Below are positions 4,877 through 38,417 of a stretch of DNA of 64,000 nucleotides, in pieces (position 1 is the first letter of the stretch; the number at the start of each line of letters is the position of its first letter). This DNA is from Tistrella mobilis (lineage in GTDB: Bacteria; Pseudomonadota; Alphaproteobacteria; Tistrellales; Tistrellaceae): contig NZ_JBBIAB010000006.1 of NCBI RefSeq assembly GCF_039634785.1, positions 124,001-188,000 of the forward strand, written 5' to 3'. Position numbers and translations under genes: made by a program. The notes beneath the pieces are model-generated. The model saw nothing but the letters and a program-made list of their open reading frames with translations. It was not told where the DNA came from and did not search any database.

Positions 4877-6162
4877 GCCGTCACCGCGCGTGTCCGAACC
4901 AGAATCTCTGAATGCAGCGTCCGATGAACCGGGCATTTGTCGGCAATCTCCATCAGCTTTGCGCGCTGGTCGTCGTCGAGCGGACCGTCGAGAAGGATCT
5001 CCCGGTCGATCACGTCGATCTTGCCCTCGCGGGTTTCGCACTCGGCGCAGTCTCGGGCATGGACCTTGGCATGCGCAAGGGTGACGGTCACACGGGCAAG
5101 CGGCCAGCCCTTGCGATCGGCATACATGCGGATGGTCATCGAGGTGCAGGCGCCAAGTCCGGCCAGCAGATAGTCGTAAGGTGCCGGGCCGCCATCCTGG
5201 CCGCCGACCGCCACCGGCTCGTCGGCGAGCTGGATATGCCGGCCGACCCGGACGGTGTTGCCGAGCCTGCCCCGGCCGTTTTCCGCCACCACCACCCGGC
5301 CTTCGGGCGGCGGCGCGCCGGCCGCGGTGGCGGCATCGACCGCCGCTTCATCGGGTGCACCGGCGCCGGCGCCGTGACGCCGGCCGGCCTGGTCGTCGCG
5401 GGTGTAGCGCGCGGCCCAGGCGGCGATGACGCCGGCGGCATAGGACGCGTCGGCGGCGCCGTTCAGCAGATGGTCGGCGGTGTCGAGCGACACGAAGCTC
5501 TTGGGATGGCGGGCGGCGACGAAGATCCGTGTCGCCTCGTCGATGCCGACGGTCTGGTCGAGGGGCGCATGCATCACCAGCAGCGCCTTGTGCAGCCGGC
5601 CAAGGCCGCGCAGCACATCGGTCTCGCGCACGCCCTGAACGAAATCGCGGGTGACGGTGATGGTGCCCGACCCCAGCGGCAGCACGGCGCGGCCGTCTTC
5701 GAGCGCGTCATCGGCGGCGCGGCCCAGATGGTGCAGAATGTGTTCGGGGGCGGAGGGCGCGCCGATGGTGGCGACGGCGCGCACGGCGGCGAGCCTGGGG
5801 GCCGCCGCCAGTACGGCGGTGCCGCCCAGGCTGTGGCCGATCAGCAGGACCGGCGCTGCATGGCTCCGCTCCAGCCAGCCGGCGGCCAGGATGATGTCTT
5901 CGACATCGGCGGCAAAATCGGGTGCCGGCGGCTCGCAACCTTCACCGCTGCCGGTGAAATCCACCCGAAGCACGCCGAAGCCTTCCGCCGCCAGCCCCCG
6001 CGCGATGCGGGTGGCCGCGGTGCTGGCGGCAGAGCAGGTGAAGCAATGGGCGAAAATCGCCCAGCCGGCCGTGACCGCCCCGCCCTCGGGCAGGTCGACC
6101 AGAACCGGCAGCGGCCGGCCGTCACGGCCGGCAATCTCAGGGCGGAGCGGCGGGGAGGCCAT
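4873..6162 (-). CDS. bifunctional alpha/beta hydrolase / OsmC family protein
   Basis: A 429-residue fusion. Residues about 1-260 are an alpha/beta hydrolase with the nucleophile Ser111 in GHSLGG and a His in DTADHLLNG. Residues about 285-429 are an OsmC/Ohr-type domain, with one Cys in GLGACTSMTIRMYADRKG and the second in DKCPVHRTLHSE, the redox pair used to reduce organic peroxides. This fusion architecture is widespread in proteobacteria. It is followed with a 4-nt overlap by a second hydrolase gene. The physiological substrate is not established from this sequence. Confidence 0.9.
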   Translation of the reverse strand: MASPPLRPEIAGRDGRPLPVLVDLPEGGAVTAGWAIFAHCFTCSAASTAATRIARGLAAEGFGVLRVDFTGSGEGCEPPAPDFAADVEDIILAAGWLERSHAAPVLLIGHSLGGTAVLAAAPRLAAVRAVATIGAPSAPEHILHHLGRAADDALEDGRAVLPLGSGTITVTRDFVQGVRETDVLRGLGRLHKALLVMHAPLDQTVGIDEATRIFVAARHPKSFVSLDTADHLLNGAADASYAAGVIAAWAARYTRDDQAGRRHGAGAGAPDEAAVDAATAAGAPPPEGRVVVAENGRGRLGNTVRVGRHIQLADEPVAVGGQDGGPAPYDYLLAGLGACTSMTIRMYADRKGWPLARVTVTLAHAKVHARDCAECETREGKIDVIDREILLDGPLDDDQRAKLMEIADKCPVHRTLHSEILVRTRAVTA

Positions 6163-28918: not shown

Positions 28919-31330
28919 ATGCCGTTTTATGCCCATTCGCTGAAGGACCGGCCCGAGACCGCGTGGCATCTGCTGGCCGATCATCTGCGGGCGGTGGGGG
29001 CTGGGGCGGGGGGGAGTGCCGCGCGGTTCGGGCAGGAGAGCATCGCCCGGGCGGCCGGGCTGCTGCATGACAGCGGCAAGTACTCTCCGGAATTTCAGGC
29101 GCGGCTGCGCGGGGATGTCTCCAAGGTCGATCATGCGACCTGGGGCGCACGGGTGATGTCCGACATGATCCGCGACCGCGCCGGCGGGCTGGCCGGGCGT
29201 CTGCCCGGGGCGCAGGCGGTGCTCTATGCCGTGGCCGGGCATCATGCCGGGCTGGCGGATTTCGAGGATCAGGGCGATGGCGGCCGCGGCAGCCTGCGGG
29301 AGCGGGTGGAGAAGAAGCCGCTCGACGATGCCTCGGCCTGGAAAGACGAGATCACGCCGCCCGAGCCCGATGAGAGCTGGCTCCGTCTGCCGCCGCCGCG
29401 GCCGGGGGAGGCGCCGGACGACCGCGCCGGGTTCCGCTTCGCGGTGATGACCCGGATGGTGTTCTCGTGCCTGGTGGATGCCGATTACGCCGACACCGCC
29501 GCCTTTCATGCCGCCGCCGAGGGCCGGGAAGATCCGGAGGCGGGGTTCGAGGCCGCGCCCATGGCGGTGCTGCGGGGGCGGGTGGACGGGTTCATCGACG
29601 GTCTTGCCGCCCGGGCCGCGGCCATGGCCGCCGGGCAGGCGGGGGCGGAGCGGGTGGTGGCCGCCCGCGCCGGGGTGCTGGCCGATTGCCGGGCGGCGGC
29701 ATCGGCGGGGCAGGGCGTGTTCTCGCTTTCGGTGCCAACCGGCGGCGGCAAGACGCTGGCCTCGCTCGCCTTCGCGCTGGCCCATGCCGAGGCGTATGGG
29801 CTCGACCGGGTGATCATCGTCATCCCCTATACCTCGATCATCGAGCAGACCGCCGGGGTGATCCGCCAGGCGCTGGGGGCCGATCTGGCCGATCAGGTGC
29901 TGGAACATCACAGCGCCTTCGACACCGAAGCCGATCTGGACCGCCGCAACATCCCGCCGGAGGGCCGGGAGCGCTGGCAGGGCCGCGACAAGCTGCGCCG
30001 GGCGATGGAGCGCTGGAACCGGCCGATCATCGTCACCACCGCCGTGCAGTTCCTGGAAAGCCTGTTTTCGGACCGCCCGGCGCGCTGCCGCAAATTGCAG
30101 GCGATCCCGCGATCCGTGGTGATCCTGGACGAGGCCCATATGATGCCCCGCGGCCTGCTGCGCCCGACGGTCGCGATGCTCGACGAGCTGGCGGCGAATT
30201 ACCGGGTGACGGTGGTGCTGGCGACGGCGACGCAGCCGGTGCTGGTGGCGCCCGACGACACTGCGGAGGTCGTGGACGAATACGCCCAGGTGTTCGGGCT
30301 GGAGGGCGGGTTCCGGGCGGTGCGCGAGATCGTCTCCGACGCCTCTGCCCTGCATCAGCGGCTGGCGCGGGTGCGCGTGCAGGATGCGGGCAGTCTGGAC
30401 GATGCCGGCGTGATCGCGCGACTTATGACCGCACCCCAGGCGCTGGCGGTGGTCGACACCCGCCTTCATGCCCGGCGGCTTTACGAGGCACTGGCCGCAT
30501 CGGCGCCCGAGGGCGCGTTCCACCTGTCGGCGCTGATGACCGCCGCCCATCGCAGCCGGCGGCTGGACGAGATTCGCGCCCGGCTGGCGGCGGGCGGGGC
30601 CTGCCGGATCATTTCCACCACCGTCATCGAATGCGGCGTGGATATCGACCTGCCGATGGTGCTGCGCGCGGCGGCGGGTTTCGATTCGATCGCCCAGGCC
30701 GCGGGGCGCTGCAACCGCGAGGGCCGGCTGGGCCGGGGCGGGATCGTCGAGGTCTTCACGCCCGCCGACCCGGCGGACCAGCCGAAACGCCTGGCCCAGG
30801 CGCTGGCGGCAGCGGCGACGGCGCGGACATCGATGGCCGAGCAGGGCATCGCCGACCCGCTCTCGCCCGAGGCGATGCGGCTCTATTTCGATGCCCTGTT
30901 CTGGCAGATGCTCGACAGGCTGGATAGCGCAAACATCATGGCGCTGCACGACAGCCCGCGGCGCCTCGCCATCCCCTTCGCCACCATCGCCGCCCTCTAC
31001 CGGATCATCGAGGACGGCATGCTGCCGCTGATCATCCCGACCACGCCCGAGGCCGAAGCCTGCGTGGCGGCGCTGGATGCCGCCGACCCGTCCGCCCTCG
31101 ACCGCTTCGGTGGTGCTGGCGGGGCCGCAAGGCTGCTGCAACGCCATGTCGTGACCCTGCCGCCGCGGATCCGGAAGATGCTGGTGGAGGCAAGTGCGGC
31201 GCATGTGGTGGGTGGGGAGCGGTATGGGGAGCAGTTCATGGTTCTGACCAATACCAGCCTGTACCGCGAGGATGTGGGGTTGGTTTGGGAGGAGCCGGCG
31301 TTCGTCGCGGTGGAGAGATTGGTTTTCTAA
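28919..31330 (+). CDS. cas3: CRISPR-associated helicase/nuclease Cas3 (type I-C)
   Basis: An 803-residue fusion of an HD nuclease and a DExH helicase, recruited by Cascade to degrade target DNA. The HD part has His6, then His50-Asp51 in LLHDSGKYSPEF and GHHAGLADF. The helicase has Walker A VPTGGGKTLASLAFAL (about residues 271-285), DEAH in VVILDEAHMM (about 403), TATQPVL, and motif VI-like VIECGVDIDLP and QAAGRCNREGR. All key residues look intact. It is the first gene of the type I-C operon, separated from cas5c by 201 bp that hold a crRNA-like element. Confidence 0.96.
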   Translation: MPFYAHSLKDRPETAWHLLADHLRAVGAGAGGSAARFGQESIARAAGLLHDSGKYSPEFQARLRGDVSKVDHATWGARVMSDMIRDRAGGLAGRLPGAQAVLYAVAGHHAGLADFEDQGDGGRGSLRERVEKKPLDDASAWKDEITPPEPDESWLRLPPPRPGEAPDDRAGFRFAVMTRMVFSCLVDADYADTAAFHAAAEGREDPEAGFEAAPMAVLRGRVDGFIDGLAARAAAMAAGQAGAERVVAARAGVLADCRAAASAGQGVFSLSVPTGGGKTLASLAFALAHAEAYGLDRVIIVIPYTSIIEQTAGVIRQALGADLADQVLEHHSAFDTEADLDRRNIPPEGRERWQGRDKLRRAMERWNRPIIVTTAVQFLESLFSDRPARCRKLQAIPRSVVILDEAHMMPRGLLRPTVAMLDELAANYRVTVVLATATQPVLVAPDDTAEVVDEYAQVFGLEGGFRAVREIVSDASALHQRLARVRVQDAGSLDDAGVIARLMTAPQALAVVDTRLHARRLYEALAASAPEGAFHLSALMTAAHRSRRLDEIRARLAAGGACRIISTTVIECGVDIDLPMVLRAAAGFDSIAQAAGRCNREGRLGRGGIVEVFTPADPADQPKRLAQALAAAATARTSMAEQGIADPLSPEAMRLYFDALFWQMLDRLDSANIMALHDSPRRLAIPFATIAALYRIIEDGMLPLIIPTTPEAEACVAALDAADPSALDRFGGAGGAARLLQRHVVTLPPRIRKMLVEASAAHVVGGERYGEQFMVLTNTSLYREDVGLVWEEPAFVAVERLVF

Positions 31331-31336
31331 CAGTTT

Positions 31337-31350
31337 CAAGATTGCCAGAA
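31337..31350 (-). promoter_or_regulatory. self-target with TTC PAM upstream of the cas5c promoter
   Basis: Read on the minus strand this is TTC (31350-31348) followed by TGGCAATCTTG, then A and two more matching bases reaching 31334. It equals the first 11 bases of the spacer-like sequence at 31444, plus positions 13 and 14; only position 12 differs. TTC is the known PAM of type I-C systems. The PAM ends 7 bp before the predicted -35 of the cas5c promoter. Confidence 0.6.
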
Positions 31351-31357
31351 ATAGCGC

Positions 31358-31386
31358 TTGACGATCATCAGGCGGATAAGAAAAAT
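31358..31386 (+). promoter_or_regulatory. predicted promoter for the crRNA-like RNA and cas5c
   Basis: TTGACG (31358-31363) and AAAAAT (31381-31386) are 17 bp apart, matching sigma-70 consensus at 5 of 6 and 4 of 6 positions. Transcription would start near 31393, just before the repeat-like hairpin. An internal promoter here would explain the long gap after cas3. Confidence 0.5.
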
Positions 31387-31392
31387 TGTGAA

Positions 31393-31491
31393 CACGAAAT
31401 GATTGTGTCGACCGGTGCGGCTATGCCGGTCGCGGATTGAAACTGGCAATCTTGGAAGACGGTCACCCGGGGGCCGGCCGCGTCGGCCCCC
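31393..31491 (+). ncRNA. candidate crRNA-like regulatory RNA (CreR/CreA type)
   Basis: From the predicted start the transcript would contain the repeat-like hairpin (31409-31432), the conserved handle ending GATTGAAAC (31435-31443), a spacer-like sequence from 31444, and a second strong hairpin at 31469-31491 (8-bp stem GGGGGCCG/CGGCCCCC). Cas5c, encoded next, is the enzyme that cuts type I-C repeats. The spacer start matches the self-target at 31334-31347. By analogy with crRNA-like RNAs known in other CRISPR subtypes, it would guide Cascade to repress this operon. Prediction only. Confidence 0.55.
31407..31443 (+). CRISPR. solitary degenerate type I-C repeat
   Basis: The 37-nt element starts GTCG and ends CGGATTGAAAC, the start and 3-prime end of typical type I-C repeats (usually 32 nt). 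Its middle is a perfect 7-bp stem CGACCGG/CCGGTCG with a 10-nt loop, larger than usual. It occurs once and is not part of an array. Confidence 0.65.
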
Positions 31492-31531
31492 AACGACCCT
31501 TCATGTCTTCTCCCTCTGAAAGGTGAGGACG

Positions 31532-32197
31532 ATGGCTTTTGGCGTTCGGCTCCACGTCACCGGGCCGCGGGCGCTCTACACACGCCCGGAAATGAAGGTG
31601 GAGCGTGTGTCATATGATGTCCTGACACCTTCTGCCGCCCGCGGAATCGTCGAAGCGATCCACTGGAAGCCGGCAGTCCGCTGGCAGATCGACCGGATCA
31701 TTGTGCTCAACCCGATCCGCTTCGAGACCATAAGGCGCAACGAGGTCGGCTCGAAGATCGCGGCCGGGGTGGTCAAGCGGGCGCGGGCGGCCGGGAGTAC
31801 CGCGGGCGTCTATACCATCGTCGAGGAAGACCGCCAGCAGCGCGCCTCGGTGGTGCTGCGCGATGTCGCCTATATCATCGAGGCCCATTTCGAGCTGACG
31901 GCGGCGGCGGGGCCGTCGGATAACGAGGGCAAGCATCTCGACATCTTCAACCGGCGGCTGGCGCGCGGGCAGTGCTATCAGCAGCCTTGCCTGGGCACGC
32001 GCGAATTCGCCGCCGATTTCGGGCCGGTGGAGGGCGATCCGGTGCCGCATGCGGATCTGGCCGGCACGCGGGATCTGGGCTGGATGCTTTATGACATCGA
32101 CTATGCCCATGGCATGCAGCCGCGTTTCTTCCGGGCGCGGATGGTTGATGGCGTGATCACGGTGCCGCCGCCGCAGTCGGATGAGGTGGTGTCGTGA
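31532..32197 (+). CDS. cas5c: type I-C Cas5 (Cas5c/Cas5d), crRNA-processing endoribonuclease
   Basis: A 221-residue Cascade subunit. In type I-C this protein replaces Cas6 and cuts precursor crRNA at the repeat hairpin. I take the ATG at 31532, with AGGTGAGG just upstream; an in-frame GTG at 31523 lies inside that ribosome-binding site. Family features include LHVTGPRALYTRPEMKVERVSYDVLTPSAARGI near the N-terminus (shown here in two parts) and WKPAVRWQIDRIIVLNPI. It overlaps cas8c by 4 nt. Confidence 0.95.
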   Translation: MAFGVRLHVTGPRALYTRPEMKVERVSYDVLTPSAARGIVEAIHWKPAVRWQIDRIIVLNPIRFETIRRNEVGSKIAAGVVKRARAAGSTAGVYTIVEEDRQQRASVVLRDVAYIIEAHFELTAAAGPSDNEGKHLDIFNRRLARGQCYQQPCLGTREFAADFGPVEGDPVPHADLAGTRDLGWMLYDIDYAHGMQPRFFRARMVDGVITVPPPQSDEVVS

Positions 32198-34104
32198 TCC
32201 TGCAGCAGCTGGCCGAGTATTACGATCGTCGGATCGAGGGCGGGGATACCGATCTTCCCGAAGAGGGGATGTCGGAACAGGCGATCGACGCCGCGGTCGA
32301 TCTGGAGCGGTTTCAGCCGGGTGGTGTGCCGCCGGTGCTGCTGCTGGGCGACCGCAGCGGCAAGAAACCGAAACCGCTGCGCATGACCGTGCCGGCGGCG
32401 ATCAAGCGTACCTCGGGCGTGGCGGCCAATTTCCTCTGGGACAAATCCGCCTATGTGCTGGGCGTGAAGCGCGCCGGCAAGACGCCGGATGCCGGTGTGG
32501 TGGCGGCCGAGAAGGAGTTCGAGGCCTTCCGGCAGCTGCATACCGAGGCGCTGGCGGGAACCGAGGACCGCGCCCTGCTCAAGCTGCTGGAATTCCTGGA
32601 GGACTGGACACCGGAACGGGCGGTGGCGGCGGTCGAGGCCGGCGAAATTCCGATCGAAGCCGTGGACGGCAATCTCATTTTCCGCTTCGGCCGCGGCACC
32701 GTGCGCGATCTGCACCGCTTCCGGGCGGCCCGGGCCGCCTGGGCCGCGCGACGCGAAGCGGTGGCGGGGGCGGCCGGGCGTTGCCTGGTCAGCGGCATTG
32801 TGGCCCCGATCGCTAAGCTGCATCCCTCGATCAAGGGCGTGCGGGGTGCGCAGAGTTCCGGCGCGTCGCTGGTCTCGTTCAATCTGAGTGCCTTCACCTC
32901 CTTCGGCAAGGAACAGGGGGCGAATGCGCCGATCTCGGAACGGGTCGCCTTCGCCTATGGCGCGGTGCTGAACAAGCTGCTGGCGCCCGATGGCGCACAC
33001 CGGGTGCAGATCGGCGATGCGACCACGGTGTTCTGGACCGACGCCCCCAACCCCGCCGACGACACCGCAAGCCGCGTGCTCGCCAATGCCGTTTCCCCCG
33101 CTTATGGGCTGATGGACCAGGACGAGGGTGCAGAGGCCGACGAGGCGGGCGAGGACGGCACCGCAAAAAAGCCCAAAATCGACCTGAAGATGAGCGACGA
33201 GGAGGCGAAGCGGGTTCGCACCGCGCTCTCGGCGCTCGCCCGCGGGCGGACGATGGGCGAGGCGATCTCGGCGGATCTTGACCCCGACACCCGGCTCTGG
33301 GTGCTGGGGCTGGCGCCCAACGCCGCCCGGCTGGCGCTGCGCTTCTGGTACGAAGACCGGCTGGGCGATGCGGTCGATCATGTCCGCCAGCACTGGCACG
33401 ACCTCCGCCTCGACCCCGGCATCGATGCCGGGCGACCGGTGTCGGTTTACGCGCTGCTGAAGGCCCTGGCGCCGCAGGGCAAGCTCGACAATCTGCCGCC
33501 GAAGCTTGGCGGCGACATCATGCGGGCGGTGCTGAGCGGCCGCCCGTACCCCGCCAATATGGCGGCACTGGCGCTGATGCGCATCCGTGCCGACGGAGAG
33601 ATTTCCGCCCTCAGGGTCGCCATGCTCAAGGCCTGGCTGCTCCGGCGGTCGGGAAAGGAACCCCTGGAGAGGGAGGGCGATCTCGTGAGTCTGGATCCTG
33701 CCGAAACCAATGCCGGCTACCGGCTGGGGCGGCTGTTTGCCGTGCTGGAGAACCTTCAGCGGGCGGCGCTGCCGGGGCTGAACGCCACCATCCGCGACCG
33801 GTTCTATGGCGCGGCCTCGGCAACGCCCGGGTCGATCTTCCCGGTGCTGATGCGCGGCAGCACCCATCATGCGGCGAAGCTGCGCAAGGATCGCGGTGGT
33901 CTCGCCCACTGGTACGACACCACCATCGCCGAGGTCGTGGACGGCCTGCCCTCGAACCTGCCACGCCATCTGGGGGTGGAGGATCAGGGCCGGTTCGCGA
34001 TCGGCTATTTCCATCAGCGCCAGGCGATGATGACCCGCGCCCCGGCCGAGGTGAAGGCTGCGGAGGCCGGCGAGCCGGCCGTGGTCGGCGACGACGACGC
34101 CTGA
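32194..34104 (+). CDS. cas8c: type I-C Cascade large subunit Cas8c (Csd1)
   Basis: A 636-residue large subunit that recognises the PAM and holds the Cascade complex. It starts at a GTG that overlaps the cas5c stop. The N-terminus MILQQLAEYYDR and MSEQAIDAAVDLERFQPGGV are typical of Csd1. Further landmarks are SAYVLGVKR, CLVSGIVAPIAKLHPSIKGV and VGDATTVFWTD-like (seen as IGDATTVFWTDA). Length and order fit the family. An acidic Glu/Asp-rich loop lies near residue 310-325. Confidence 0.95.
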   Translation: MILQQLAEYYDRRIEGGDTDLPEEGMSEQAIDAAVDLERFQPGGVPPVLLLGDRSGKKPKPLRMTVPAAIKRTSGVAANFLWDKSAYVLGVKRAGKTPDAGVVAAEKEFEAFRQLHTEALAGTEDRALLKLLEFLEDWTPERAVAAVEAGEIPIEAVDGNLIFRFGRGTVRDLHRFRAARAAWAARREAVAGAAGRCLVSGIVAPIAKLHPSIKGVRGAQSSGASLVSFNLSAFTSFGKEQGANAPISERVAFAYGAVLNKLLAPDGAHRVQIGDATTVFWTDAPNPADDTASRVLANAVSPAYGLMDQDEGAEADEAGEDGTAKKPKIDLKMSDEEAKRVRTALSALARGRTMGEAISADLDPDTRLWVLGLAPNAARLALRFWYEDRLGDAVDHVRQHWHDLRLDPGIDAGRPVSVYALLKALAPQGKLDNLPPKLGGDIMRAVLSGRPYPANMAALALMRIRADGEISALRVAMLKAWLLRRSGKEPLEREGDLVSLDPAETNAGYRLGRLFAVLENLQRAALPGLNATIRDRFYGAASATPGSIFPVLMRGSTHHAAKLRKDRGGLAHWYDTTIAEVVDGLPSNLPRHLGVEDQGRFAIGYFHQRQAMMTRAPAEVKAAEAGEPAVVGDDDA

Positions 34105-34161
34105 TCGCCGCATCACCCTGTTTCATGATGTGAGCCCCTTCTTCGAAAGCGCCCGTTTCCC

Positions 34162-35034
34162 ATGACCGCGATCAGCAACCGCTATGATTTCGTCTATCTC
34201 TTCGACGTCACCAACGGCAACCCGAACGGCGACCCGGATGCCGGCAACCTGCCGCGGCTCGACCCCGAGACCAATCAGGGGCTGGTGACCGATGTCAGCC
34301 TGAAGCGCAAGGTGCGCAATTTCGTCGACATGGTCGCCGGCAGCACGCCCGGCCACGAGATTTACATGCGGGAGCGCTCGTACCTGAACGAGCAGCACGA
34401 GAGGGCCTACAAGGCGCTCGACATCAAGCCTGAGCCGAAGAAGCTGCCCAAGAAGGAGGAAGAGGCGCGCGCGGTGACCGCCTGGATGTGCGCCAATTTC
34501 TTCGACATCCGCACCTTCGGCGCGGTGATGACCACCGAGACGAACACCGGCCAGGTCCGCGGCCCGGTGCAGCTGACCTTCGCGACCTCGATCGACCCGA
34601 TCATGCCGCTCGAAATCTCGATCACCCGCATGGCCGCGACCAAGGAAGAGCCGGGCAAGAACGACATCCGCACCATGGGCCGCAAGCATATCGTGCCCTA
34701 CGGTCTCTATCGTGCCCATGGCTTCATCAGTGCCCATCTGGCGGGGCGGACCGGCTTTTCGGACGACGACCTCGCCTTGTTCTGGGCGGCGCTGCAGAAC
34801 ATGTTCGACCACGACCGCTCGGCCGCCCGCGGGGAGATGACCGCGCGCGAACTGGTGGTGTTCCGGCATGACAGCGCCATCGGCAACGCCCCGGCGCACA
34901 AGCTGTTCAAGCGCGTGACCGTCACCCGCGCCACCCCCGACGAGGCCCGCCCGCCGCGCAGCTTCGACGACTACCGCGTGGAGGTGGACACCGACGGGCT
35001 GCCCGAGGGGATTACGGTGGAGCGGATGATCTGA
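34162..35034 (+). CDS. cas7c: type I-C Cascade backbone subunit Cas7c (Csd2)
   Basis: A 290-residue RAMP protein that polymerises along the crRNA spacer. The N-terminus [20 protein letters not shown] is the family signature. Others are [36 protein letters not shown] and [18 protein letters not shown]. It lies 57 nt after cas8c and 33 nt before cas4. No defect is seen. Confidence 0.96.
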
Positions 35035-35067
35035 TCCGCCGACATGATCCGGGGGGAGGGCACAGCG

Positions 35068-35730
35068 ATGACGGACGAGGCCGACGCGCCCTCCCTGCCC
35101 ATCTCGGGGCTTCAGCACTGGATGGTCTGCCCGCGCCAGTTCGCCCTGATCCATGTCGAGCGGATCTGGGCGGAGAACGCGCTCACCGCCGAGGGCCGGG
35201 TGGCGCATGAGGCGGTGGACCGCGGCACCGCCGAGGCGCGCAAGGGCGTGAAGCGGGTGACGTCGCTGGCGCTGGTCTGTCGCGATCCGCCGCTGCACGG
35301 TGTGGCCGATGTGGTCGAGTTGACCATCGAGCGGCGCAGGGTGGTGGCGGCCCTGCCGGTGGAACACAAGCTCGGCCGGCCCAAGGCCCATCGGGCCGAC
35401 GAGGTTCAGCTCTGCGCCCAGGCGCTGGCGCTGGAGGATATGTTCGGCCTTCAGGTGCCCGAGGGCGCGCTGTTCTATGGCCGCACCCGGCGGCGGATGG
35501 CGGTGATGTTCGACGACGACTTGCGCGCGCTGACCCGCCGCATCGCCGCCGAGGCCGCCGCCTGCCTGGCCGCGGGGCAGACACCGCCCGCGGTCTATGA
35601 CCGGAAGCGCTGCGATGCCTGCTCGCTGATCGACACCTGCCGGCCGAAGGCACTCGCCCGCGGTCGGGCGGTCGCCGGCTGGATCGATGCCCGGCTGGGC
35701 AGCCATGCGGATGGGGAGGGGGAGCCGTGA
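35068..35730 (+). CDS. cas4: Cas4 exonuclease, spacer-acquisition factor
   Basis: About 220 residues, RecB-like fold with a 4Fe-4S cluster. The cluster cysteines are one in WMVCPRQFALIH and three in RKRCDACSLIDTC. RecB motifs appear as GVADVVEL (Asp), LPVEHKLGRPK (Glu, Lys) and VQLCAQALALEDMFG (Gln). In type I-C, Cas4 trims prespacers and enforces PAM selection with Cas1-Cas2. I use the ATG at 35068, with GGAGG 9 nt upstream, rather than 35044. It overlaps cas1 (GTGA). Confidence 0.95.
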   Translation: MTDEADAPSLPISGLQHWMVCPRQFALIHVERIWAENALTAEGRVAHEAVDRGTAEARKGVKRVTSLALVCRDPPLHGVADVVELTIERRRVVAALPVEHKLGRPKAHRADEVQLCAQALALEDMFGLQVPEGALFYGRTRRRMAVMFDDDLRALTRRIAAEAAACLAAGQTPPAVYDRKRCDACSLIDTCRPKALARGRAVAGWIDARLGSHADGEGEP

Positions 35731-36803
35731 AGCGTTATCTCAACACGCTCTATGTCACCACCCAGGACGCCTGGGTGGTGAAGGACGGCGCCAATCTCGT
35801 GGTCCGGCTCGATCAGGCGGAAATCGGCCGGGTGCCGATGCATCTGCTGGGGGCCGTGGTCGGGATCGGCCTGGTCAGCTTCACCGCGCCGCTGCTCGCC
35901 GCCTGCGCCGAGGCCGGGATCACGGTCAGCATGCTCGACCGCAACGGCCGGTTTCAGGCGCGGGTGGAAGGGCCGGTTTCGGGCAATGTGCTGCTGCGCC
36001 GCGCCCAGTATCGCGCGGCCGACGACCCCGACCGCGCGGCGGATCTGGCCGCCTCTCTGCTCACCGCCAAGCTCGACGGTCAGCGGGCGGTGCTGAAGCG
36101 CGGCCTGCGCGACCATGGCGAGACCATGGACGCGGCCGCCCGCGACCGGCTGACGGCGGGCGAGGCGGCGATCGGCGATGCGCTGCGCCGGGTGCGGGCG
36201 CTGGCTGCCCCCACCTCCGATCCCAACCCCGCCGCCATGATCCGGCTCGACCGGCTGCGCGGCATCGAAGGCGAGGCGGCGGCGCGCTATTTCGAGGCTT
36301 TCGGCGCGCTGATCCGGAGCGACGAGCCCGCCATGCAGTTCGATGGGCGCAATCGCCGGCCGCCGCGCGACCCGGTGAATGCGCTGCTCTCTTTCCTTTA
36401 TGTGCTGCTGACCCATGATTGCCGCTCGGCACTGGAAAGCGTGGGGCTGGATCCGGCGGTGGGCTTCCTGCACCGCGACCGGCCCGGCCGGCCGGGGCTG
36501 GCGCTGGACCTGATGGAGGAATTCCGCCCGCGCCTCGCCGATCGGCTGGCGCTCACCCTGATCAACCGGCGGGAACTCGGGGCGAAGGATTTCGTCCGCG
36601 ACGCGGCCGGCGGTGTCACCATCCGCGACGAGGCCCGCAAGCGCGTGCTGGTCGCCTGGACCGACCGCAAGCGCGAAACCGCCACCCATCCCTATCTGGG
36701 CGAAAGCGCCGCCCTGGGGCTGATGCCGCATCTTCAGGCCCTGCTGCTGGCCCGCACCCTGCGCGGCGACCTGGATGCCTATCCGCCCTGGCTGCCGCGC
36801 TGA
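35727..36803 (+). CDS. cas1: Cas1 integrase, type I-C
   Basis: A 358-residue spacer integrase that starts at a GTG overlapping the cas4 stop. MKRYLNTLYVTTQDAWVVKDG is the usual type I-C N-terminus. The metal ligands fit Glu in RGIEGEAAARYF, His in GFLHRDRPGRPGLALDLME and the acidic residue of that segment. The frame is intact, so adaptation should be possible if a leader and repeat exist elsewhere. Confidence 0.96.
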   Translation: MKRYLNTLYVTTQDAWVVKDGANLVVRLDQAEIGRVPMHLLGAVVGIGLVSFTAPLLAACAEAGITVSMLDRNGRFQARVEGPVSGNVLLRRAQYRAADDPDRAADLAASLLTAKLDGQRAVLKRGLRDHGETMDAAARDRLTAGEAAIGDALRRVRALAAPTSDPNPAAMIRLDRLRGIEGEAAARYFEAFGALIRSDEPAMQFDGRNRRPPRDPVNALLSFLYVLLTHDCRSALESVGLDPAVGFLHRDRPGRPGLALDLMEEFRPRLADRLALTLINRRELGAKDFVRDAAGGVTIRDEARKRVLVAWTDRKRETATHPYLGESAALGLMPHLQALLLARTLRGDLDAYPPWLPR

Positions 36804-36848
36804 CCGTCTCCGCCGCTCCACGCCGCCCGTATCAGGGAGACCCCGCCG

Positions 36849-37139
36849 ATGATGGTCCTGGTCAGCTACGACGTCCGCACCGACACGGCCGCCGGCCGCC
36901 GCCGCCTGCGCCGCGTGGCCCGGGCGGTGAAGGATTTCGGCCAGCGCGTCCAGTATTCGGTGTTCGAATGCGATGTCGACCCGGCCCAGTGGACCCTGCT
37001 CCGCGCCCGCCTGATCGCGGAAATCGACCCCGACCACGACAGCCTGCGCTTCTATCGCCTGGGCGCCAACTGGCGCCCCAAGGTCGAACATGTCGGCGCC
37101 AAACCCGCCACCGATTTCGACGCGCCGCTGATCATCTGA
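36849..37139 (+). CDS. cas2: Cas2, type I-C
   Basis: A 96-residue ferredoxin-fold protein that bridges Cas1 dimers during spacer integration. MMVLVSYDVRTDTAAGRRRLRRVA contains the conserved Asp (shown here up to the basic helix), and GQRVQYSVFECDVD follows. It is the last cas gene, 45 nt after cas1. A CRISPR array is expected right after it but is absent from the window. Confidence 0.96.
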   Translation: MMVLVSYDVRTDTAAGRRRLRRVARAVKDFGQRVQYSVFECDVDPAQWTLLRARLIAEIDPDHDSLRFYRLGANWRPKVEHVGAKPATDFDAPLII

Positions 37140-37583
37140 ACGGCCCGTGGGTCCGATGCGTGGCTCAAGTTTCTATTATGTATTAAATCGTTAAATTTCG
37201 GAGAGACAAAGTTGCCATACCCGGGCGTCGCGCGGGCCGGTTTTTCCGACGGGGACCAGGGGGATTGAAAGGGGATGGAATCGCCCCCTTCCTGGCTGCA
37301 TGAACTGAAGCATCCGCAGCGTGTTCAGATATCGAAGCAGAATGCGGGCGCACGTCCGACGAGGTGGCGTCGGGCGTCTGGCTGTCAGCTGGGGTGATCA
37401 TGGGGCCGGGCTCACCTGATCGGGGGCCGGCGTGCTGTTTCTTGCTCCGACCGTGTTCAGCCAGAATTCGATCAGGCGAGTATTCGATCAGAAGGGGGCG
37501 ATTCATAGCACCAAGGTGGTTCATCGTGCCCGGTTCCGCACCATTGCGGTGCATCTTTACCGTAACGGCCAGTAAGGACAGGA
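37140..37583 (+). other. AT-rich leader-like stretch and degenerate repeat remnant after cas2
   Basis: No gene. At 37170-37210 the sequence is AT-rich (TTTCTATTATGTATTAAATC), as CRISPR leaders are. From 37227 (GTCG) to 37271 (GGGGGATTGAAAG) a stretch resembles the ends of a type I-C repeat, but it is about 45 nt long, the stem is poor and the last base is G. Nothing repeats after it. A direct repeat ATTCGATCAG occurs at 37466-37475 and 37482-37491. This looks like a leader whose array has been lost, or a second solitary repeat. Confidence 0.4.
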
Positions 37584-38003
37584 TCAGCTCTGCCAGGGAT
37601 CGATCACAGTCAGGCCGGCGGCATTGAATGGAGCGGTGTCGCGGGTTGCGACGCTCAGACCGCGGGCCCGGGCAATTGCTGCGATGTAGCCGTCTGTGGG
37701 TGCGATTGCCTTTCCCTGGCGACGGGCTTCGGCGCGCAGATCAGCATAGGCTCCGGCGGCGGCCGTGTCGAAGGGCAGAATACGCCCAGCGAAGAGTGGC
37801 AGAATTCTCTGTTCAAGATTGCTATGGAGACTGGTTCTGCGTCGTCCTTCTGGAAGGACAGCGATGCCGAAGCGCAACTCGGCAAGAGTGATTGTCGAGA
37901 TGTGCAGGGCTTTGATATCCTGTTTGTCCAGCCAGACAAGTACGACCGGATCGCCCGCAGGCCGAAGTGGTTCTGATATCACGTTGGTGTCGAGCAATAT
38001 CAT
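37584..38003 (-). CDS. vapC: VapC/FitB-type PIN-domain toxin
   Basis: A 139-residue PIN ribonuclease. MILLDTNVISEPLRPAGDP gives the first Asp, TITLAELRFGIAVLPEG the Glu, and IAPTDGYIAAIARARGLSVATRDTAPF (in two parts) the C-terminal acidic residues. The pattern is that of FitB-like VapC proteins. It would cleave tRNA or other RNA when released from its antitoxin. Its ATG overlaps the antitoxin stop by 4 nt. All catalytic acidic residues seem present. Confidence 0.92.
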   Translation of the reverse strand: MILLDTNVISEPLRPAGDPVVLVWLDKQDIKALHISTITLAELRFGIAVLPEGRRRTSLHSNLEQRILPLFAGRILPFDTAAAGAYADLRAEARRQGKAIAPTDGYIAAIARARGLSVATRDTAPFNAAGLTVIDPWQS

Positions 38004-38257
38004 CCGAGATCAATCGGCTCTGCAGGTGTGCGATCCCGCTCGACATCAATATCCACACCGCCGGCTTCGCGACCGATCGCGGCAAGCAGGGAGCCGAGCC
38101 GCACCGGCTGATCTTCGGCAGCCTGGCGTTCGGGCCGCACGGCTTCTTCCAGAATCACCCGCAATTCGGCTTCAGCGCTCCGTCCGTTCATGGCGGCCCT
38201 GACGCGCAGCGCATGATCGGTTTCGTGAGAAACATCCCTGACCGTAATCGACGGCAT
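38000..38257 (-). CDS. FitA-like ribbon-helix-helix antitoxin
   Basis: An 85-residue antitoxin. MPSITVRDVSHETDHALRVR is a ribbon-helix-helix DNA-binding segment, followed by AAMNGRSAEAELRVILEEAV, as in FitA/StbC proteins. The C-terminal tail would wrap the toxin. I take the ATG at 38257 rather than an upstream in-frame start at 38320. It pairs with the PIN toxin and probably represses their promoter. The pair sits directly beside the CRISPR locus, a common place for toxin-antitoxin modules. Confidence 0.88.
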   Translation of the reverse strand: MPSITVRDVSHETDHALRVRAAMNGRSAEAELRVILEEAVRPERQAAEDQPVRLGSLLAAIGREAGGVDIDVERDRTPAEPIDLG

Positions 38258-38417
38258 GCCGGTCTCCTCGGGCTGCGGGCGCTGTAGACCCAATGTGGGG
38301 GACGGGGGCGCGCAAGGCAAGCCTGTGTGGCACGTGCCCCGTCAGCCCGACCCCTCCCGATCAGCGCCTGGCTGAGCGCCAGCCACGGCGTCTCGTCCGG
38401 TGTGCGGATCATGCCGC

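Follow-up and report, generated by a model that had tools for sequence, protein, structure and literature searches.

The window analysed here is a stretch of 64,000 nucleotides of a Tistrella genome (G000:C6:124001-188000) and contains a complete type I-C operon, in which cas3, cas5c, cas8c, cas7c, cas4, cas1 and cas2 were all recognised with NCBIfam. On the plus strand, the helicase-nuclease gene cas3 (28919-31330; NCBIfam cas3_HD and cas3_core) is followed by cas5c (31532-32197; NCBIfam TIGR01876), encoding the type I-C pre-crRNA endonuclease, and by cas8c, cas7c, cas4, cas1 and cas2 (32194-37139), which form the rest of the operon presumed to be repressed. Cas5c is present in a single copy in the genome, and cas5c is found at 98% on the pTM3 replicon of the nearest named genome, Tistrella mobilis KA081020-065. 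No CRISPR array adjoins the cas operon of G000, the arrays lying only on other parts of the genome. They are numerous, lie on other contigs and have repeats like GTCGCACCCCGCGGGGGTGCGTGGATTGAAAC; the same pattern was found in two further Tistrella genomes, G001 and G002. Scattered over the replicons (contigs C2, C4, C6, C8, C17 and C36 in G000; likewise in G001 and G002), these I-C arrays present three repeat variants of 31-32 nt, none of them beside the sole cas operon. Downstream of this operon, a possible repeat relic (GTCGCGCGGGCC...GGGGGATTGAAAG) lies at 37229-37271, 90-130 nt 3' of cas2, and has no counterpart at the same place in G001. Just beyond it, on the minus strand (37584-38320), a PIN-domain toxin-like ORF and a FitA-like antitoxin ORF were recognised by eye from their translations.

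The gap between cas3 and cas5c contains a degenerate type I-C repeat of 37 nt (psiR1; plus strand, 31407-31443), read directly from GTCG at 31407 to GATTGAAAC at 31443 and composed of a hairpin and a GGATTGAAAC handle. Its sequence differs from the array repeat of the genome (GTCGCACCC...GGGTGCGTGGATTGAAAC). Rfam independently assigned 31405-31443 to CRISPR-DR9, a CRISPR direct repeat, with a hit of 26.8 bits (E 0.017) that falls short of the gathering score, 45. The repeat is followed by a spacer-like guide segment (plus strand, 31444-31467), which starts with TGGCAATCTTGGAAG and whose seed is 31444-31454. Directly 3' of the spacer, and part of the same guide element, stands a stable GC-rich hairpin (plus strand, 31468-31492; about -23 kcal/mol), either the remnant of a second repeat or a 3' end signal of the guide. 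The original prediction covered this second hairpin in its span (31393-31491) without naming it. The hairpin lacks a U-tract, which leaves the 3' end formation of the guide unexplained. Among 24 such elements, the handle is followed by a hairpin of -14 kcal/mol or stronger in 22. An ordinary CRISPR array, with at least two near-identical repeats spaced by about 66 nt, was rejected, as the repeat at 31407-31443 is single and no second repeat occurs at array spacing.

On the minus strand, a TTC PAM (31350-31348; GAA on the plus strand) is followed by a protospacer-like target (31347-31334) that reads TGGCAATCTTGAAA. This inverted copy of the spacer starts 4 nt past the cas3 stop, about 100 nt from the spacer itself. 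Positions 1-11, 13 and 14 match and position 12 (at 31336) does not (G vs. A), giving an uninterrupted seed match of 11 nt, or 14 nt with one mismatch. At the full I-C length of 34 nt, the target footprint would extend to about 31314. The sequence TGGCAATCTTG occurs exactly twice in the window, and TTC followed by TGGCANTCTTG is matched exactly at a single site of the 6.16-Mb genome, the one upstream of cas5c. Elsewhere in the genome there are six sites with one mismatch to the PAM and seed and none exact, a control pattern giving two; a second target elsewhere in G000 was not retained. By simple counting, positions 1-5 and 7-11 would match next to a TTC somewhere in the 201-nt gap with a chance of about 6e-6. 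Seven bp from the PAM lies a predicted -35 box, TTGACG (31358-31363). It belongs to the only promoter called on the plus strand, a predicted sigma-70-like promoter of the guide RNA and cas5c operon (31358-31386; TTGACG, 17 nt, AAAAAT; 9/12 matches, 0.1 expected). Its -10 box (AAAAAT) is weak and its start site is predicted, not mapped. The original prediction had placed the repeat, the seed, the inverted copy, the PAM and the 7-bp spacing to the -35 box at these coordinates and had claimed a match over the first 14 positions except position 12; all of this held to the base.

No toxin ORF was found under the targeted promoter in Tistrella. A 32-aa ORF with a TTG start in G000 was rejected as a toxin, having no counterpart in G002, where no ORF of at least 22 aa lies between the target and the repeat. 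A 7-codon ATG...AGG TGA stretch upstream of cas5c was not counted either: it overlaps the ribosome-binding site of cas5c and itself lacks one. With no conserved ORF between the target and the repeat, the cas operon is therefore the only gene set downstream.

We then aligned the cas3-cas5c gap of the three Tistrella genomes. The spacer and target read TGGCAATCTTGG and TGGCAATCTTGA in G000, and TGATGTTTTTGG and TGATGATTTTGA in the congeneric G002. From G000 to G002, seed positions 3, 4, 5 and 8 are altered to the same bases in spacer and target, and the only mismatches of G002 are those of the flipped-out bases 6 and 12. If the two sides were independent, the probability that the same four of ten positions change to the same bases would be roughly 6e-5 by our own arithmetic. 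G001 carries the spacer of G002, but its target (TGTTGATTTTGA) shows one extra mismatch at position 3 (A vs. T), owing to which its operon may be only weakly repressed. Despite drift of the repeat, the TTC PAM, TTGACG, the handle and the repeat hairpin are conserved in all three genomes, the hairpin being preserved through compensating changes in G001 and G002. A looser PAM and seed pattern found the cas-adjacent site in G001 and G002, and in G002 one further site, differing at position 3. The pairing of spacer and target is under selection, as four identical seed changes in G002 show, with a single extra mismatch in G001. The identical changes at four seed positions, together with the kept PAM, handle and hairpin, therefore indicate selection in the toxin-free state. 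The comparison of this gap in related genomes had been named in advance as a test of the prediction, and it was passed: repeat, PAM and matched target are retained.

To broaden the search, we screened 80 named I-C loci for standalone handles (GGATTGAAAC-like, outside arrays; n = 49) and compared spacer positions 1-5 and 7-11 with TTC-flanked sites in the same locus. A perfect 10/10 seed match at a TTC site was found for 17 of the 49 standalone repeats. When TTC was swapped for each of the 63 other trinucleotides, the best gave 2 matches in these 80 loci; shuffled spacers gave none in 20 rounds, and none of the 939 true array spacers from the same loci showed such a match. Since the test had been devised after an initial inspection of these loci, it was run again under the same rule on 79 loci fetched separately. 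There, 3 of 20 matched at TTC vs. 3 summed over the 63 other trinucleotides, and shuffled spacers gave no match. A few of the 79 loci had already been read by eye, and L012 and L022 had been part of the initial inspection.

Each position was also scored only on pairs selected via the remaining positions. With this leave-one-out procedure, positions 1-5 and 7-11 match at 89-100%, position 6 at 25% and position 12 at 44%; beyond the seed, the values are 69-88% for positions 13-17, 44% for position 18 and 25% for positions 19-20. Pairing thus spans positions 1-17, with position 6 at about chance and positions 12 and 18 low, and this 6/12/18 periodicity corresponds to the pairing in a type I R-loop formed by Cascade. 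The original prediction had held that position 12 is flipped out and that its mismatch should be silent; this is supported by the G002 mismatches at 6 and 12 and by the periodicity in the I-C loci. Targets occur in either orientation across loci (direct in L033, L045, L096 and L160), and an RNA hairpin is therefore excluded as a general explanation. The cas3-cas5c gap measures at least 171 nt in all operons with both element and target, and mostly <120 nt where the element is absent; some long gaps contain no recognised handle. Upstream of cas5c in L095 and L124, an inverted repeat of 11-12 nt (GGTCCACTCTCC...GGAGAGTGGACC and GGGCTCACTCC...GGAGTGAGCCC, respectively) encloses the repeat and spacer and replaces the usual 3' hairpin. 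L112 and L120 are two plasmids of one strain, Acidisoma sp. PAMC 29798, that carry the same I-C operon and also share neighbouring toxin-antitoxin genes, with identical protein accessions.

Two layouts of the element can be distinguished. In most I-C relatives, 180-330 nt separate the target from the repeat, and a small ORF occupies this interval. A TM-like stretch was found in this ORF in 14 of 23 loci, vs. 1.8 expected in shuffles. Homologous small ORFs recur at the same place across genera (L027/L030/L031/L040; L058/L081; L062/L077/L078), L027 being from Delftia and L040 from Oleiagrimonas, and no Pfam match was found for these recurring ORFs. Lying between the targeted promoter and the standalone repeat, the small ORFs are about 30-62 aa long, usually with one hydrophobic segment (L027 at about 5754-5920, L030, L031, L040, L045, L057 and L058; further L061, L065, L066, L081, L082 and L124). 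A second family (MKRRxYALRIxIGSFxIxLELDLEPP) occurs on the minus strand of the gap in L062, L077 and L078, where the arrangement is reversed and the target lies beside cas5c. It is possible, though inferred from sequence alone, that the small ORFs encode Cascade-guarded toxins, often of membrane type. The small-ORF form has the layout of CreTA, so that the family is mainly CreTA-like. In Tistrella, L043 and L160, the target and the repeat are separated by 60-100 nt, and no ORF fits. The Tistrella form belongs to the toxin-free minority and has the layout of CreR, its promoter running straight into the guide and cas5c. In L066 (about 2540-2615), the guide's 3' hairpin can still be recognised as a second I-C repeat (GTCGCGCCCCATCTTGGGCGCGTGGATTAA), and it is apparently an intermediate between a mini-array and a single-repeat guide. 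Because of this remaining second repeat, the I-C guides are probably derived from a minimal array of two repeats, an origin also proposed for creA (PMC8501985).

We propose that the 5' leader of the cas5c-cas8c-cas7c-cas4-cas1-cas2 operon encodes, at 31407-31492, a crRNA-like regulatory guide of the CreR type. The guide would be transcribed from the predicted promoter at 31358-31386, and Cas5c would cut the repeat hairpin, leaving a handle of about 11 nt. At 31334-31350, Cascade loaded with this guide would read TTC together with bases 1-5 and 7-11 of the seed and, sitting beside the -35 box, would block the promoter shared by the guide and the Cascade genes. In Xanthomonas oryzae, TTC works as a PAM for I-C (PMC8406640), and I-C killing in Xanthomonas needs at least 27 bp (PMC8406640). 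As the match is far below this length, Cascade binding without Cas3 cutting is expected, in line with the original prediction; this also remains inferred. Repression would ease, and Cascade would be replenished, once Cascade is occupied by an anti-CRISPR or by canonical crRNAs of the many distant arrays; this competition step is borrowed from work on CreR (PMC12737573). The element anatomy, the PAM requirement, the seed, the matched changes, the R-loop periodicity and the recurrence are shown by sequence. Transcription, Cas5c processing, Cascade loading, promoter blocking and the competition step are inferred, there being no RNA or expression data.

With these reservations, we consider it very likely that the guide is a Cascade-mediated repressor of its own cas operon, although no RNA or repression data support this inference. 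The original prediction of a I-C autorepressor made by Cas5c cleavage is thus supported by the sequence, its transcription, processing and repression being inferred, and it has to be qualified, since in most relatives the targeted promoter drives a small toxin-like ORF. Several points speak against the repressor reading, among them the weak -10 box and the missing U-tract of the 3' hairpin. The position-3 mismatch of G001 might be disabling, if it acts as in haloarchaeal CreA. Cascade would sit just upstream of the -35 box, not over the promoter core. Read-through from cas3 could bypass the promoter.

Among the rival explanations, the one that survives best, although we consider it unlikely, is a relic of a CreTA addiction module that has lost its toxin, the remaining pairing decaying or touching the cas promoter incidentally. 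The small ORF between target and repeat in most relatives (14/23 TM-like vs. 1.8 expected), its absence from Tistrella and the seed mismatch of G001 are in its favour. However, the four identical seed changes in G002 and the conserved PAM, handle and hairpin argue against decay, and short forms without a toxin are also seen in L043 and L160. A long-range RNA stem or the operator of a dimeric protein, instead of a Cascade target, would agree with inverted copies about 100 nt apart in Tistrella. This was rejected as very unlikely on the mismatches at positions 6, 12 and 18 across lineages, the required TTC flank and the direct-orientation copies in L033, L045, L096 and L160; moreover, the predicted start site lies downstream of the target. 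An ordinary self-targeting spacer, or a chance match in a decaying solitary repeat, is also very improbable: solitary repeats exist and self-targeting spacers occur, but the array spacers of the same loci gave 0/939, changes are matched between genomes and the match ends after about 14 nt, not about 34, while chance is rejected by the PAM, shuffle and array controls. Finally, a Racr-like decoy RNA titrating Cas5c or Cas7 and inhibiting the system without base pairing is very unlikely, for although Racrs also take the form of solitary repeat mimics, a tested I-C case among them (PMC10651486), the element sits within the cas operon and its seed and target co-vary, which a decoy does not need.

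Beyond the autorepressor, a bolder reading can be formulated, which we lean slightly against as a whole. The cas3-cas5c gap of proteobacterial I-C systems would hold one ancestral RNA-guided module in two states. In one state, the module would serve addiction and guard a small membrane-protein toxin from undescribed families; in the other, that of Tistrella, it would be a toxin-free autorepressor whose guide is carved by Cas5c from the mRNA leader of Cascade itself. In the latter case, Cascade would therefore limit its own genes at two levels, through the promoter and through cleavage of the leader.

If the autorepressor is real, RNA-guided self-control of CRISPR extends to type I-C, with a crRNA cutter that is both a subunit of Cascade and a product of the repressed operon itself, and I-C Cascade expression should increase during heavy use of the arrays or on the arrival of anti-CRISPRs. 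If the small ORFs truly are Cascade-guarded membrane toxins, they would explain a possible lethality of anti-CRISPRs or of Cascade loss in the hosts concerned. The R-loop periodicity (6, 12, 18) is visible as an evolutionary signal in sequence data alone and therefore provides a homology-free search rule: handle, TTC and seed 1-5/7-11.

Several known systems resemble the Tistrella element. The Racrs of phages (PMC10651486) are likewise solitary repeat mimics and include a I-C example, but they are inhibitors encoded by phages or plasmids without a conserved promoter target. CreTA/CreA modules, known from haloarchaea and from I-F of Acinetobacter (PMC8501985, PMC10097628), share the degenerate repeat(s), the TTC PAM and the seed rule. 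In haloarchaeal CreA, a seed of 1-5 and 7-11 with TTC, 6 and 12 being free, was found experimentally (PMC8501985), and this pattern is met in Tistrella and lineage-wide. The CreTA module of Acinetobacter also lies between cas3 and the Cascade genes (PMC10097628). Unlike CreTA, the Tistrella element has no toxin gene, and the middle gene of its I-C relatives apparently encodes a small protein, often with a TM helix, whereas the described CreTA toxins are RNAs. CreR, the cas-regulating RNAs reported for I-B, I-E and V-A (PMC13131331), are the closest in design: like the Tistrella element, they are crRNA-like RNAs with limited complementarity to a cas promoter and no coupled toxin gene (PMC12737573), autorepression being inferred in our case. 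Tistrella has the standalone degenerate repeat of the cognate subtype beside cas genes (31407-31443), the limited PAM-flanked complementarity to the cas promoter (TTC and an 11-nt seed, unique in the genome) and the absence of coupling to a toxin gene. Shmakov et al. 2023 (NAR, doi 10.1093/nar/gkad495) reportedly described CRISPR-derived regulatory elements and mini-arrays, including standalone conserved repeats beside cas genes, whose spacers are reported to match cas promoters in part. RNA-guided autorepression in I-C was not found in the open-access literature that we searched, which did not include this survey. Unless Shmakov et al. 2023 lists I-C elements, the Tistrella element is new with respect to CreR in its subtype, I-C, in its expected processing enzyme, Cas5c instead of Cas6, and in its guide, which lies in the leader of the very operon that it targets and would repress.
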